Source: Meiothermus sp.
Lineage (GTDB): Bacteria > Deinococcota > Deinococci > Deinococcales > Thermaceae
Length of the DNA: 64,000 nucleotides
Assembly (NCBI RefSeq): GCF_026004075.1
Contig: NZ_BPIK01000001.1
Coordinates: forward strand, 283,501 to 347,500
Reading direction: 5' to 3'
Positions 26,175 to 39,162 of the stretch are shown here, piece after piece. The position numbers were made by a program, and so were the translations under genes. Every line of letters starts with the position of its first letter. Within the stretch, counting starts at the first letter, position 1. The notes under the pieces are model-generated. The model searched no databases and had not been told where the DNA came from. It saw only the letters and a program-made list of their open reading frames with translations.

Positions 26175-26180
26175 TATGCT
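26175..26180 (+). promoter_or_regulatory. -10 element for a leaderless apaG mRNA
   Basis: TATGCT lies six bases before the GTG of apaG, the same layout as at 12267-12279. No Shine-Dalgarno is present. No clear -35. Confidence 0.5.
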
Positions 26181-26186
26181 CATAAA

Positions 26187-26579
26187 GTGTCGGCGAGCCT
26201 GCCCATCCGAAACGTCATCCATGTGGAGGTAGAGGTGGTTTACGCCCAGGCACACTCGAGGCCTGGGCAGCAGGTGTTTGTCTATTTCATCACCCTGGAA
26301 AACCGGGGCTACGAAACCGTGCAGCTCTTGCGCCGGGAATGGTTCATTCAGGACGCCCAGGGAGGGCTGGCGCACGTAGAGGGTGAAGGGGTGGTAGGTG
26401 AAAAGCCCATCCTCGAGCCGGGGCAGCTTTACAAATACAACAGCTTCTGCCCCATAGCCCAACCTCCAGGCCTAATGTGGGGTTTTTATACCTTTCAGAA
26501 CATGCTGGGTGAACTGTTTCGCGTGGAGATCCCAGCCTTTGCCCTGCGCCTGCCGGACGCCCACCGCACCCTCAACTAG
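26187..26579 (+). CDS. apaG: ApaG domain protein
   Basis: A 130-residue ApaG protein with an immunoglobulin-like fold. VYFITLENRGYETVQLLRREWFI, the VEGEGVVGEKPILEPGQLYKYNSFCPIAQPPGLMWGFY block and the Gly-rich loop are family-typical. ApaG is linked to Co/Mg sensitivity and diadenosine tetraphosphate phenotypes in enterobacteria, but its biochemical role is not settled. GTG start at 26187 with a leaderless promoter. Its end overlaps the convergent ABC gene by four bases. Confidence 0.92.
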   Translation: MSASLPIRNVIHVEVEVVYAQAHSRPGQQVFVYFITLENRGYETVQLLRREWFIQDAQGGLAHVEGEGVVGEKPILEPGQLYKYNSFCPIAQPPGLMWGFYTFQNMLGELFRVEIPAFALRLPDAHRTLN

Positions 26580-29549: not shown

Positions 29550-29734
29550 GGGTGTGGGCTTGGACAAATATCCCTCATCCGGCAATGGTAGTATTTAGAT
29601 ACCAGGCTCGAGGGCATTTTGAAAGCCTAAAGCAGTGTTTCGGGAATCCCAAAAAAGTGGAGGTTCCGAGTGGCCTTCGCTATACCTCGAAACCCAGCCT
29701 GGAAATCTAACTCGGAACGCGATTGGAGGGCAAA

Positions 29735-30286
29735 ATGAACGTCTACAAGCTGGTTGGTCGTCAAATTGAGATTACTGAGGCCCTCAAGAACTACCTGGAT
29801 AAGAAGATGGCCCGCCTAGACCGCTACTTCGATAACAACGTTGAAGCCAAAGTTGTGCTCTCGATGGCCCAGGGGGCACGCATCGAGCGTAAGGCCAAGG
29901 CGGAGATTCAGGTCAATGTGCCGGGGGGTATTGTACGCGTAGAGGAGTCCGATCCTGATATGTACGCGGCTATAGATCGCTCGATTGACCGCCTCGAGTA
30001 CCAGCTCAAGCGCTACAAGGAGCGTCACTTCCAGCGCGAGCGTCACGCAGTGCCAGAGGCAGTGCTGGCCGGGAGCGCCCAGACCGAGGCTGAAGAAGAG
30101 GCCGAACCTCGCATCGTGCGCACCAAACGCTTTCACATGAAGCCCATGACCCCAGAAGATGCTGCTTTCGAGATGGAAGCCCTGGGGCACGACTTCTTCG
30201 TGTTCCGCAACTCCGATACCGATCAAATCAACGTGATTTATCGGCGCCGTGATGGCAATTACGGCCTAATCGAGCCCACCGCCTAA
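29735..30286 (+). CDS. hpf: Ribosome hibernation-promoting factor, long form
   Basis: A 183-residue long HPF. The N-terminal S30AE domain (about residues 1-100) begins NVYKLVGRQIEITEALKNYLDKKMARLDRYF, and the C-terminal dimerisation domain is KRFHMKPMTPEDAAFEMEALGHDFFVF. The long form pairs 70S ribosomes into inactive 100S dimers in stationary phase. ATG 29735 has GGAGG five bases upstream, so the longer MEGK start is not needed. The 185-base upstream gap is a likely regulated leader, but I see no clear promoter. Confidence 0.95.
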   Translation: MNVYKLVGRQIEITEALKNYLDKKMARLDRYFDNNVEAKVVLSMAQGARIERKAKAEIQVNVPGGIVRVEESDPDMYAAIDRSIDRLEYQLKRYKERHFQRERHAVPEAVLAGSAQTEAEEEAEPRIVRTKRFHMKPMTPEDAAFEMEALGHDFFVFRNSDTDQINVIYRRRDGNYGLIEPTA

Positions 30287-34684: not shown

Positions 34685-34896
34685 AGCCACAAAACCAAAG
34701 CGGTTTTCCACGATCTCCAAAAGCAACCGAAGCGATCCTCGAACGCGCCTCAGACCAAGTCGCTTGCGCGATTCCGACTGAGCCGGAACCTATCAGGTGT
34801 GGCAAGTGCGTGGCGCTTTACTGCGATTTCCTCTATAGGTCATTCGCGTGTAGAGCTGGTAGGCTCGAGGGTCTTGTACCAACAATATACGCAGTA

Positions 34897-34925
34897 TTGA
34901 TACCCCAAATGCGCTGACATATAAT
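34897..34925 (+). promoter_or_regulatory. Promoter of the TRAP transporter operon
   Basis: TTGATA (34897-34902) and TATAAT (34920-34925) are separated by exactly 17 bases, the best promoter in the window. The leader of about 45 bases contains a GCAAAAAG/CTTTTTTGC inverted repeat (34943-34963) and ends in the strong GAGGAGG Shine-Dalgarno of dctP. The rest of the gap 34685-34896 shows nothing I can support. Confidence 0.8.
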
Positions 34926-34977
34926 CTCCTCGCACCGAACGTGCAAAAAGGTAGCTTTTTTGCTGAGGAGGAATTCG

Positions 34978-36060
34978 ATGAAGCGACGTGACTTCTTGAA
35001 GAAAGCAGGGGTTGGTGCTGTAGCGGCCAGCACGGTATTTGGTCCGGTTTACGCCCAAACCTTGCCGCGTTTGCGCTGGCGTATGGCCACGAGCTGGCCT
35101 CGCTCGCTGGATACCCTGTTTGGCGCTGCCGAGATTGTGGCCAAGCGGGTGGCCGAGATGACCGATGGGCGTTTCGAGATTACCCCCTACCCGGCGGGTG
35201 AAATCGCCCCTGGGTTGCAGGTGCTGGACGTGGTACAGGCTGGCAACGTCGAGATGGGCCACACCGCCAACTACTACTATGTAGGTAAAAGCCCTTCGCT
35301 GGCCTTCGACACCGGGGTACCCTTTGGCCTGAACCCCCGTCAGCAGAATGCCTGGCTCTACTTTGGCGGTGGGTTGCAGGCCATGCAACGGGTGGCCGCC
35401 GACTTCAACGCCATTACCTTCCCGGCGGGTAACACCGGGGTGCAGATGGGGGGCTGGTTCCGCAAGGAGATCAAAGGCCCGGAAGACCTCAAAGGACTGC
35501 GCTTCCGTATCCCAGGGCTGGGCGGACAGGTCATGGCCCGCCTGGGGGTTACGGTGCAAACCCTGCCGGGGGGTGAGATCTTCCTGGCGCTCGACCGTGG
35601 GGCCATTGACGGGGCCGAGTGGGTGGGCCCCTACGACGACGAAAAACTAGGCCTGAACAAAGCTGCCCGCTTCTACTACTACCCCGGCTGGTGGGAGCCC
35701 GGCTCCACGGTTTCTGCTCTGGTTAACCTGGATCGCTGGAAAAGCCTGCCCAAGGAGTACCAGGAGATTATCAAGGCGGCCTGCGCCGAAGCCAACGAGC
35801 GAACCCTGGCCGAGTACGATGCCAAAAACGCCCCGGCGCTGGCACGCTTGCAGCGGGCCGGTACCCAGCTCAGGCCCTACCCTTCCAGCGTGCTGCAGGC
35901 GGCCAACAAAGAATCCACCGCTTTGTACGAGGAAATTGCAGCCAAAGACGCCACTTACCGCGGCATCTACGAAAACTGGAAGAAATTCCGCGACGAGATT
36001 CGGCGCTGGTTCGCGCTCAACGAGTTCCGCTACGACGACTTTACCCGTACTTTGCGCTAA
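34978..36060 (+). CDS. TRAP transporter solute-binding protein, DctP family
   Basis: A 360-residue periplasmic binding protein with a Tat-type signal ([19 protein letters not shown]). [21 protein letters not shown], the conserved Arg in [11 protein letters not shown] and [22 protein letters not shown] match the TakP-like branch that binds 2-oxo acids or lactate-type monocarboxylates, often with a metal ion. It delivers substrate to the DctQM permease encoded just downstream. Start ATG 34978 with GAGGAGG. Expression above the permease is likely because of the hairpin after its stop. Confidence 0.9.
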
Positions 36061-36076
36061 CCTTGGCCTCTTCAAA

Positions 36077-36106
36077 TCCCCTACAGTGGCACTGTAGGGG
36101 AATTTT
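36077..36106 (+). terminator. Terminator-like hairpin between dctP and dctQ
   Basis: TCCCCTACAGT and ACTGTAGGGGA form a perfect 11-bp stem with a GGC loop, followed by AATTTTTG. It is likely to work as a partial terminator or 3' stabiliser that lowers permease expression relative to the binding protein. Confidence 0.75.
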
Positions 36107-36182
36107 TGTAGCCAATTGATTATTGATTGACGGAACCCAACCTGCTCGTTACGATGGGCAGGGCCAAAAAGGAGTCAGTAAA

Positions 36183-36224
36183 ATGCACGAAAGGGTACTT
36201 TTACCTGAGGGAGGTTGGGTTTGA
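36183..36224 (+). CDS. Leader mini-ORF overlapping the dctQ start
   Basis: ATG at 36183, with AAAAAGGAG seven bases upstream, opens a 13-codon frame (MHERVLLPEGGWV). Its TGA overlaps the TTG start of dctQ in the sequence TTGA. Translation of dctQ from its weak TTG could be coupled to this leader. It lies after the attenuator hairpin. It could also be chance, since such short frames are common. Confidence 0.4.
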   Translation: MHERVLLPEGGWV

Positions 36225-36778
36225 AGGCGTTGCTCTTCGCTTCCAGGCTAATTGATAGCCTTAACGAATGGGTAGGGCGTGTGGTCTTGTGGCTGGTAGT
36301 GCCGATGATCGCTATTGGGGCTTACAACGCTATAGGACGTAGCCTCGATAAAAGCATTGGAACCCGGCTGGCCTCCAACACCTACTTCGAGCTGCAGTGG
36401 TATCTCTTCTCCCTGATTTTTTTGTTGATGGTGGGCTACGTGCTCAAGCACAACGGCCATATCCGGGTGGATGTGGTCTATGCCCGCCTGGGCGCACGGG
36501 GTCGGGCCTGGGTGAATATGCTGGGTTCGATTTTGTTTGTGGTGCCTTTTGCTTTGATTCTCTTCTACGTTTCCCTACCGCTGGTGGCGTTCTCTGTGCA
36601 GGTGCGGGAAGCCTCCCTAGATGCCGGTGGACTGCCTCGCTGGCCCCTGAAGCTCATGATGTTGCCAGCCTTTATCTTGCTCGCTTTGCAGGGCTTTTCG
36701 GAGTTTGTCAAGAACCTGGCTTATTTGCGTGGGGTGTTGCCCCAGCTACCCAGCGAGGCTGAAGGGGAGGTGGCCTAG
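36221..36778 (+). CDS. TRAP transporter small permease, DctQ
   Basis: A 185-residue protein with four transmembrane helices and the central conserved block FELQWYLFSLIFLLMVGYVLKHNGHIRVDVVYARL, typical of DctQ. It forms the small membrane subunit with DctM. The start is uncertain: TTG at 36221 has GGGAGG six bases upstream and overlaps the leader ORF stop, whereas TTG at 36215 has none at proper spacing. dctM begins directly after its stop. Confidence 0.9.
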   Translation: MKALLFASRLIDSLNEWVGRVVLWLVVPMIAIGAYNAIGRSLDKSIGTRLASNTYFELQWYLFSLIFLLMVGYVLKHNGHIRVDVVYARLGARGRAWVNMLGSILFVVPFALILFYVSLPLVAFSVQVREASLDAGGLPRWPLKLMMLPAFILLALQGFSEFVKNLAYLRGVLPQLPSEAEGEVA

Positions 36779-38203
36779 ATGGTGCTTTCCGGCGGTGGGG
36801 TGGAGCTGTTGGGCGGGGCAATGTTTATTGCAGCCCTGGTGCTGATTTTTACGGGCTATCCGGTGGCTTTTGCGCTGGGTGGGGTGGCGCTTATTTTTGG
36901 GGCCATTGGCATTGGTATCGGTGAGTTCGACATCCGCTTCGTGGGCAGCCTGCCCCAGCGCATCTTTGGCATAATGTCCAACTACACCCTGCTGGCCATT
37001 CCGTACTTTATTTTTCTGGGACTCATTCTGGAGAAATCCAAGCTGGCCGAGCAGCTTTTAGACACGGTTGGGCAGCTTTTTGGCCCCATCCGGGGCGGTG
37101 TGGCTATTGCGGTGGTGCTGGTGGGTACTTTGCTGGCGGCCACAACCGGGGTGGTGGCGGCTACTGTGGTGGCGATGGGCCTTATCTCGTTGCCGGTGAT
37201 GCTCAAGTACGGCTACAGCAGACCTCTGGCTACGGGGGTGATTGCCGCCTCGGGAACCCTGGGCCAGATTATTCCCCCTAGCATTGTGCTGGTGGTACTG
37301 GGCGACCAGCTGGGCGTTAGCGTGGGCGACCTGTTCTTGGGTGCTTTGATACCAGGGCTAATTCTCTCCGGCAGCCTGATCTTGCTGGTGGCGCTGGTGG
37401 CCCTGGTTCGGCCTAAGCTGGCCCCGGCTCTGCCGCCGGAGGCCCGCCCGTACCGGGGCTGGGAGCTGGCCTGGCGGGCCCTGGTAGCGCTGGTGCCGCC
37501 GGTGCTGTTGATTTTGTTTGTACTGGGCAGCATTTTCTTTGGCATCGCGACCCCTACGGAGGCCGGGGCGGTGGGCTCTATTGCAGCGCTGCTGATGGCG
37601 GCTGCCTACCGGCGCTTGAGCTGGAAAGTGTTTCGCGATGCCGTGGCCGAGACGGCGCGCTTCACCAGCATGGTGATCTTTATCCTGATTGGGGCTACCG
37701 CCTTCAGCCTGATTTTCCGGGGCCTCGAGGGCGACAAACTGGTGAAAGACATTCTGGTGGCGCTACCCGGCGGAGAAATAGGGTTTATCGTCTTTGTGAT
37801 GGTGCTGGTCTTTGTGCTGGGCTTCTTTATTGATTTTTTCGAAATCTGCTTTATTATTGTGCCCCTAATTCTGCCAGCGGCTACGGAAATCTGGACGGCC
37901 CAGGCCGAGGCCTTGCAGATGGCCGGTAACTACGACCTTTCCACCGAGGCCTTTGTGCAGCAAAAGCTATTGTGGTTTGGCATCGTGCTGGCCATGAACC
38001 TGCAGACCAGCTTCCTCACTCCGCCCTTTGGTTTTGCTCTCTTCTACCTGCGCGGAGTGGCCCCACCGGAGGTCAAGACCACCGAGATCTACAAAGGGGT
38101 GATTCCCTTCATTATCGTCCAGCTTATTGTGCTTGTGATGGTCATTGCCTTCCCCAGCCTGAGCAGTTGGCTGCCCTCGCTGCGGGGGGTACCAGGGGGC
38201 TAG
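36779..38203 (+). CDS. TRAP transporter large permease, DctM
   Basis: A 474-residue protein with about twelve transmembrane segments. TGYPVAFALGGVALIFGAIGIG, TTGVVAATVVAMGLISLPVMLKYGY, ASGTLGQIIPPSIVLVVLGD, and IATPTEAGAVGSIAALLMA are hallmark DctM blocks. It couples substrate uptake to a Na+ or H+ gradient. It starts at the base after the dctQ stop. It is longer than usual in the C-terminal third, with a segment around residues 370-400 as in the TakM group. Its end overlaps the convergent quinone reductase gene by four bases. Confidence 0.93.
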   Translation: MVLSGGGVELLGGAMFIAALVLIFTGYPVAFALGGVALIFGAIGIGIGEFDIRFVGSLPQRIFGIMSNYTLLAIPYFIFLGLILEKSKLAEQLLDTVGQLFGPIRGGVAIAVVLVGTLLAATTGVVAATVVAMGLISLPVMLKYGYSRPLATGVIAASGTLGQIIPPSIVLVVLGDQLGVSVGDLFLGALIPGLILSGSLILLVALVALVRPKLAPALPPEARPYRGWELAWRALVALVPPVLLILFVLGSIFFGIATPTEAGAVGSIAALLMAAAYRRLSWKVFRDAVAETARFTSMVIFILIGATAFSLIFRGLEGDKLVKDILVALPGGEIGFIVFVMVLVFVLGFFIDFFEICFIIVPLILPAATEIWTAQAEALQMAGNYDLSTEAFVQQKLLWFGIVLAMNLQTSFLTPPFGFALFYLRGVAPPEVKTTEIYKGVIPFIIVQLIVLVMVIAFPSLSSWLPSLRGVPGG

Positions 38204-39162
38204 GGTATCAGCAGCACCTTGCCAGTGGTCTCGCGGCTTTGCAGCGCCCGATGGGCCTGGGCGGCCTGGGCCAGGGGGAACTCGGCCCCGATTCGGATTT
38301 TGAGCTGGCCTTCCAGGGCCCAGCGCATCACGTCGCCGGCCCGCCACTCCAGCTCCTGCCGGGTCTGGGTGTAGTGCCACAGAGAGGGCCGGGTCAGGTA
38401 GAGGCCGCCTTTCTGGTTGAGGATTTGTGGGTTGAAGGGGGGCACCGGCCCGCTGCTCTGCCCGTACAGCACCAGCATGCCCCGGATGCGCAGGCTGTTC
38501 AGGCTGCCTTCCCAGGTGGACTGCCCCACCCCGTCGTAGACCACATCCACCCCTTTTCCACCGGTAATTTCGCGGACTTTCTGGTCGAAGCCTTCGTAGG
38601 GCAGGGCGTAATCGGCCCCGGCTTCCTTGGCCAGGGCCCGCTTTTCCTCCGAGGAAGCAGTAGTGATGACGGTGGCCCCAATTCGCTTGGCCATCTGAAT
38701 TAAGAGGAGCCCCACCCCACCAGCCCCGGCGTGCACGAGGCAGGTCTCACCGGCCTTGAGAGGGTAGGTGCTGTAAACCAGGTAGTGGGCGGTCATGCCC
38801 TGTAGCATGCCGGCCACGGCAATTTTGGCCTCGAGCCCATCCGGAATCTGCACCAGTTTGTTGGCGGGCACCACGGCGTACTCGGCGTAGCTGCCTTGCA
38901 CATTGGAGTAGACCACCCGGTCGCCGGGCTTCACACCAGCCACCCCCGGCCCCACTGCCTCGACCACACCGGCCCCCTCCTCGCCCACCGTAAAGGGGGT
39001 GGGGACGCTGTACAGGCCAGCGCGCTTGTAGATATCAATAAAATTGACCCCAATGGCCTGAAGGCGTACCAGGGCCTGGCCTTCGCCGGGGGTGGGGATA
39101 GGGATTTCTTCCAGTTGCAGGGCCTCGAGGCCGCCGGGTTGGTGTACGCGAATGGCTTTCAT
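38200..39162 (-). CDS. NADPH:quinone oxidoreductase, zinc-independent MDR family
   Basis: A 320-residue quinone oxidoreductase of the medium-chain reductase family. MKAIRVHQPGGLEALQLEEIP, GVNFIDIYKRAGLY, and the NADP motif VHAGAGGVGLLLIQMAKRIGA are typical of Qor. The zinc-binding cysteines of alcohol dehydrogenases are absent. It reduces quinones or enones with NADPH. TAGTCT six bases before the ATG suggests a leaderless mRNA. Confidence 0.92.
   Translation of the reverse strand: MKAIRVHQPGGLEALQLEEIPIPTPGEGQALVRLQAIGVNFIDIYKRAGLYSVPTPFTVGEEGAGVVEAVGPGVAGVKPGDRVVYSNVQGSYAEYAVVPANKLVQIPDGLEAKIAVAGMLQGMTAHYLVYSTYPLKAGETCLVHAGAGGVGLLLIQMAKRIGATVITTASSEEKRALAKEAGADYALPYEGFDQKVREITGGKGVDVVYDGVGQSTWEGSLNSLRIRGMLVLYGQSSGPVPPFNPQILNQKGGLYLTRPSLWHYTQTRQELEWRAGDVMRWALEGQLKIRIGAEFPLAQAAQAHRALQSRETTGKVLLIP

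Follow-up and report, generated by a model that had tools for sequence, protein, structure and literature searches.

In the stretch of Meiothermus sp. DNA analyzed here (64,000 nucleotides, hereafter the window), a 13-codon leader mini-ORF lies immediately upstream of dctQ, the gene for the small permease subunit of a TRAP transporter, and most likely hands ribosomes to dctQ by translational coupling. The anatomy of this leader and its conservation among close relatives were observed directly, and from them we infer promoter activity, the transcript start, translation of the mini-ORF, and the coupling itself.

Organization of the dctPQM locus

The elements named in the original prediction, i.e., a perfect 11-bp stem followed by five T residues, a Shine-Dalgarno sequence (SD), a 13-codon mini-ORF, and a TGA stop that overlaps the dctQ TTG start, were all confirmed at their positions (Table 1). 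The terminator stem at 36077-36101 reads TCCCCTACAGT-GGC-ACTGTAGGGGA, with 11 perfect pairs, 6 of them G-C, and is followed by A and T5. Downstream of the promoter-like site, an element absent from the original prediction, the dctQM transcript would start near position 36162, AAAAAGGAG occupies 36166-36174, and the ATG of the mini-ORF sits 27 nt past the -10 element. The TGA of the mini-ORF is contained in the TTGA at 36221-36224, and the position of the dctQ start at 36221 was backed by the relatives.

Table 1. Features of the dctPQM locus (positions refer to the window)
Feature	Position	Strand	Characteristics
dctP, TRAP solute-binding protein	34978..36060	+	PF03480, E 2.8e-62
dctP intrinsic terminator	36077..36107	+	11-bp stem, 3-nt loop, A then T5
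dctQM promoter-like site	36127..36155	+	TTGACG-N17-TACGAT, between terminator and mini-ORF
Mini-ORF Shine-Dalgarno AAGGAG	36169..36174	+	6-nt SD, 8 nt 5' of the mini-ORF ATG
Leader mini-ORF MHERVLLPEGGWV	36183..36224	+	ATG at 36183, 13 codons, TGA at 36222-36224
dctQ Shine-Dalgarno GAGGGAGG	36207..36214	+	inside the mini-ORF
dctQ, small TRAP permease subunit	36221..36778	+	TTG start; PF04290, E 6e-17
dctM, large TRAP permease subunit	36779..38203	+	PF06808

The best solved relative of DctP was 7ug8 (E 6e-131), which bears the name ketoacid-binding protein. The leader of dctP itself (34897-34977) contained a near-consensus promoter-like site, TTGATA-17-TATAAT (11/12 match), and two small hairpin-like repeats noticed by eye.

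Conservation of the mini-ORF start and its placement

Relatives of dctQ were sought in 41 genomes, 33 of which gave a match, and in 18 Meiothermus genomes, with a match in 17; 30 loci out of 38 dctQ matches formed the comparison set. Thirteen loci (L001-L013, including that of the window) with dctQ at least 84% identical to the window's gene are referred to as the clade, and because L002 and L003 are the same in the leader region, they represent 12 distinct loci.

An SD-led ATG or GTG (SD of at least 4 nt; ATG in 10 loci and GTG in 2), located 27-33 nt past the -10 element and followed by an open frame running across the dctQ SD, was present in 12/12 distinct clade loci, which are related by descent and do not count as 12 independent trials. 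In the dctQ tree, 5 of the 10 inner branches were unresolved and 2 were well supported; independent events could not be counted. Dinucleotide shuffles of the clade leaders, keeping the last 15 nt 5' of dctQ, gave an expectation of 0.37 of 12 loci with such a start within 24-36 nt, a range set after inspection of the loci, and 1.05 of 12 without the distance limit. The dctQ SD was GGAGG or GGGGG in all 12 loci. For the window sequence alone, chance is not negligible: when the 110 nt upstream were shuffled with the last 14 nt kept, an SD-led ATG/GTG mini-ORF ending at -6 to +3 arose in 278 of 5000 shuffles when an SD of 4 nt or longer was required, in 121 with 5 nt or longer, and in 19 with 6 nt or longer. 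It is the comparison with relatives that raises the mini-ORF above chance, and it looks conserved in the clade.

The nearest locus outside the clade, L014 (dctQ 66% identical), was without the mini-ORF. In 12 more divergent loci whose promoter hit scored at least 9.75, the distance from the -10 element to the start of dctQ itself is 26-38 nt, compared with 63-74 nt in L014 and the 12 clade loci. By these distances, the clade mini-ORF therefore occupies the place held by dctQ elsewhere.

Drift of the peptide and frame, and position of the stop codon

Codons 2-6 of the mini-ORF had a mean pairwise identity of 0.33 across the clade, so the peptide is not conserved, and the sensing through a leader peptide offered in the original prediction was not borne out. 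The alignment was anchored on the mini-ORF start, which makes the comparison of start conservation with codons 2-6 partly circular. An LPRGG-like peptide end common to several clade loci corresponds to the coding of the dctQ SD region. Given the low identity of codons 2-6, the features that persist are the SD, the start, and an open frame across the dctQ SD. The drifting peptide and frame therefore argue against amino-acid sensing and for ribosome delivery, i.e., translational coupling.

The mini-ORF stop was found at +1 (NTGA) in L001, L005, L012, and L013, at -3 in L004, L006, L008, and L009, and 23-28 nt inside dctQ in L002, L007, L010, and L011, with a mini-ORF length of 12-14 codons where it falls at the junction. 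Junction stops (-3 or +1) thus occurred in 8/12 loci, not significantly more than the 5.0/12 expected with a random frame and the downstream sequence fixed (P ~0.06, computed without correction for shared ancestry). The triplet before the dctQ start was a stop in 7/12 loci, variously TAG, TAA, or TGA, and in three of these seven (L007, L010, and L011), the mini-ORF runs in another frame. As a selected feature, the junction position of the stop is suggestive on these sequence counts. In almost every bacterial genome surveyed, genes are enriched for A at their fourth base (PMC5850271), and NTGA may also be favored for reasons within dctQ.

Promoter-like site and terminator-like hairpin among relatives

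A promoter-like site 5' of dctQ with a score of at least 9.75, the cut-off used, was present in 26/30 loci, all except L025, L028, L029, and L030; the scan motif was written after inspection of the sequences, and the count is a description and not a blind test. The weakest of the 26 hits were L004 (TTGGCG, TGGGAT) and L015-L018. The dctP gene adjoins dctQ in 10 of the 14 closest loci, and in 10/10 of these, all in the clade, a terminator-like hairpin separates dctP from the promoter-like site of dctQ, by the criterion of at least four T in an 8-base tail window and with poor tails in several of them (L004, L006). In L010, L012, and L013, neither dctP nor such a hairpin was found in the upstream DNA examined (541 nt for L010), and promoter and mini-ORF were retained. 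In L014, no hairpin was seen, and a 55%-identical dctP ends 593 nt upstream.

This distribution in the 14 closest loci indicates that the hairpin tracks dctP and the promoter tracks dctQM. Since the promoter-like site is downstream of the hairpin and recurs among the relatives, the hairpin most likely only ends the dctP transcript. The binding protein gene dctP and the permease genes dctQM are likely separate transcription units, which corrects the picture of a single operon.

In L006-L010, the ATTGAC at the -35 position had, by eye, a mirror image, GTCAAT, close to the inferred transcript start, and in L004 both motifs differ together (ATTGGC/GCCAAT). This mirror upstream of dctQ could be an operator or could have arisen by chance.

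Frequency of SD-led candidate coupled leaders in the genome

The genome sample covered 464 kb (the window and 20 further stretches), in which a home-made caller with rough gene starts placed 390 genes; the 203 having 60 nt or more of upstream sequence were used. SD-led mini-ORFs ending at -6 to +3 preceded 6/203 genes when the SD had to be 4 nt or longer (shuffles predicted 5.5), 5/203 for 5 nt or longer (1.5 predicted; 2/100 shuffles reached this count), and 2/203 for 6 nt or longer (0.33 predicted; 3/100 shuffles reached this count), each count including the dctQ mini-ORF itself. SD-led coupled leaders are not a general habit of this genome, and strong cases are a little over-represented.

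A GTG-initiated mini-ORF (22 codons, SD GGAGGT) at 29670-29738 ends in a TGA overlapping the ATG (29735) of the next gene, the start of which resembles that of a ribosome hibernation-promoting factor; the mini-ORF is possibly another coupled leader. An SD-led ATG mini-ORF of 18 codons at 26176-26232 has a stop beginning 5 nt before the called start at 26235, which is uncertain.

Predicted RNA structure and rejected readings

The predicted openness of the dctQ SD at 60 °C (0.19-0.55 unpaired in the 12 clade loci, with the scored 5-mer slightly upstream of the best SD in L007 and L008) overlapped the range in 9 relatives lacking the mini-ORF (0.07-0.53). An SD-sequestering hairpin (ACCTC-GAG-GAGGT, in several relatives) was rejected because openness was not clearly lower in the clade than in these nine. 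In the predicted folds, no structural lock that a passing ribosome could open was found to set the clade apart. A larger stretch than the leader folds with a z of -2.90, but it includes the terminator.

A programmed frameshift from the mini-ORF into dctQ was discarded, as the frame relation varies among relatives. An origin of the leader from a mobile repeat was likewise rejected: the leader had one match in its own genome, the other strong ones were only the dctQ loci of G010 and G012, and the remaining matches among the 18 genus genomes had E ~0.05 or worse. A search of 34700-38400 on both strands against Rfam gave no match at the leader; the sole match (38305-38400, E 0.52) was far below the gathering score.

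Proposed ribosome delivery and alternative explanations

In the explanation we favor, the dctP transcript would end at its own terminator, and dctQM would form a second unit with its own promoter, the mRNA of which would open with a strong SD and the short ORF, at the site where distant relatives start dctQ. Ribosomes would load at the mini-ORF SD, translate over the dctQ SD, and terminate at the dctQ start or slightly beyond it, where the terminating ribosomes would reinitiate or would open the start for another ribosome. The weak TTG/GTG start of dctQ would thus be served through coupling, and the mini-ORF peptide would have no function of its own. Against coupling, the strong dctQ SD makes de novo initiation possible.

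The same strong SD fits an alternative that we consider unlikely, in which the upstream SD-ATG acts as a brake that captures ribosomes, lowers de novo initiation at dctQ, and keeps the permease below the binding protein. The four loci in which the frame runs 23-28 nt into dctQ, so that a reinitiating ribosome would have to move backward, also speak for a brake; the exact ending at the junction in the other eight speaks against it, and the TTG/GTG starts would by themselves hold the level low. Distinctly unlikely, too, is a relic without effect, left when the ancestor gained a longer 5' UTR, with the SD-ATG kept by chance or for mRNA binding. Such a relic would agree with the drift of frame and peptide, with the overruns in 4/12 loci, and with genome-wide mini-ORFs that are at chance level when the SD is 4 nt or longer and only mildly above it at 5, but SD and start were kept in 12/12 loci against an identity of 0.33 in codons 2-6, a comparison that is partly circular.

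The original prediction combined an attenuator with a leader coupled to dctQ; the coupled leader was supported by its anatomy, the near-fixed promoter distance, and a stop at or just inside the dctQ start, and the attenuator was not. A hairpin setting the read-through from dctP into dctQM, or a leader peptide sensing a metabolite, is very unlikely: a perfect terminator does exist and some read-through from dctP may occur, but the terminator lies upstream of both the dctQM promoter-like site and the leader ORF, and promoter and leader were retained in L010, L012, and L013, loci with no dctP in the upstream DNA examined (541 nt only for L010). The clade peptides differ and have no common run of one residue, and the terminator scan gave no terminator-like site between the mini-ORF and dctQ; peptide sensing is unlikely because the peptide drifts and no such site follows the mini-ORF. 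Extremely improbable is a long-range RNA lock in which AACCCAACCT (36134-36143) would base-pair with AGGTTGGGTT (36212-36221), masking the start of dctQ. Much of this pairing is present in the predicted fold of 36110-36260, but that fold was no better than shuffles (z -0.25), the AACCCAACCT arm is within the promoter spacer and hence outside the inferred transcript, and by eye it was not conserved in 13 other aligned loci.

Ribosome delivery through the mini-ORF has an evolutionary extension, itself improbable as a whole: a lineage-specific leader ORF would have arisen between promoter and gene in the clade ancestor and taken over initiation, letting dctQ keep mostly weak TTG/GTG starts, and dctQM output would follow the conditions of ribosome termination and recycling and not its own start site, a general sensor of the translation state uncoupled from dctP. 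The locus offers a clean comparative case in Thermales, with the leader mini-ORF in one clade and a like promoter and the same gene without it in relatives, and the gain of a coupled leader is testable by swapping leaders between the two.

Comparison with known systems

The features of a leader-peptide attenuator were absent from the locus: the only intergenic terminator-like site lies 5' of promoter and leader, and the peptides are neither conserved nor rich in regulatory codons. Those of a coupled leader were found, namely, its own initiation signal, a junction stop (in 8/12 clade loci), and an unconstrained peptide with a constrained position; under coupling, dctQ translation would depend on the mini-ORF. 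The open-licence literature yielded nothing on a leader ORF with translational coupling in Thermus or on a TRAP transporter in Meiothermus, and none of the matches listed concerned the dctQ leader locus by its title or the start of its abstract.

The closest likeness is to the mycobacterial RTGA-coupled small ORFs upstream of annotated genes, for which Shell et al. 2015 (PMC4633059) describe a position that is sometimes conserved when the sequence is not. Both have a short unannotated first ORF, an NTGA stop/start overlap, and a place that is kept when the peptide is not. The mycobacterial coupled ORFs counted in that study begin leaderless transcripts, whereas the dctQ mini-ORF has its own SD and, by inference, a short 5' UTR; moreover, the overlap in the window is TTGA and not RTGA, and some clade relatives use a stop followed by GTG or overrun the junction. 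Termination-reinitiation of overlapping genes (PMC6728339) shares the stop/start overlap and the SD within the upstream ORF, but both partners there are ordinary genes, and here the first is a 13-codon leader. In the bicistronic design leaders of biotechnology (PMC5995908, PMC12548453), a short first cistron similarly delivers ribosomes to the second; those leaders are engineered, whereas the dctQ leader occurs naturally and in a single clade. A 2025 review (PMC12548453) names the delivery of ribosomes through a short ORF as a proposed function. On its sequence features, the dctQ mini-ORF fits the known kind of coupled small ORF, and the new elements are its lineage and the comparison with relatives that do not carry the mini-ORF.
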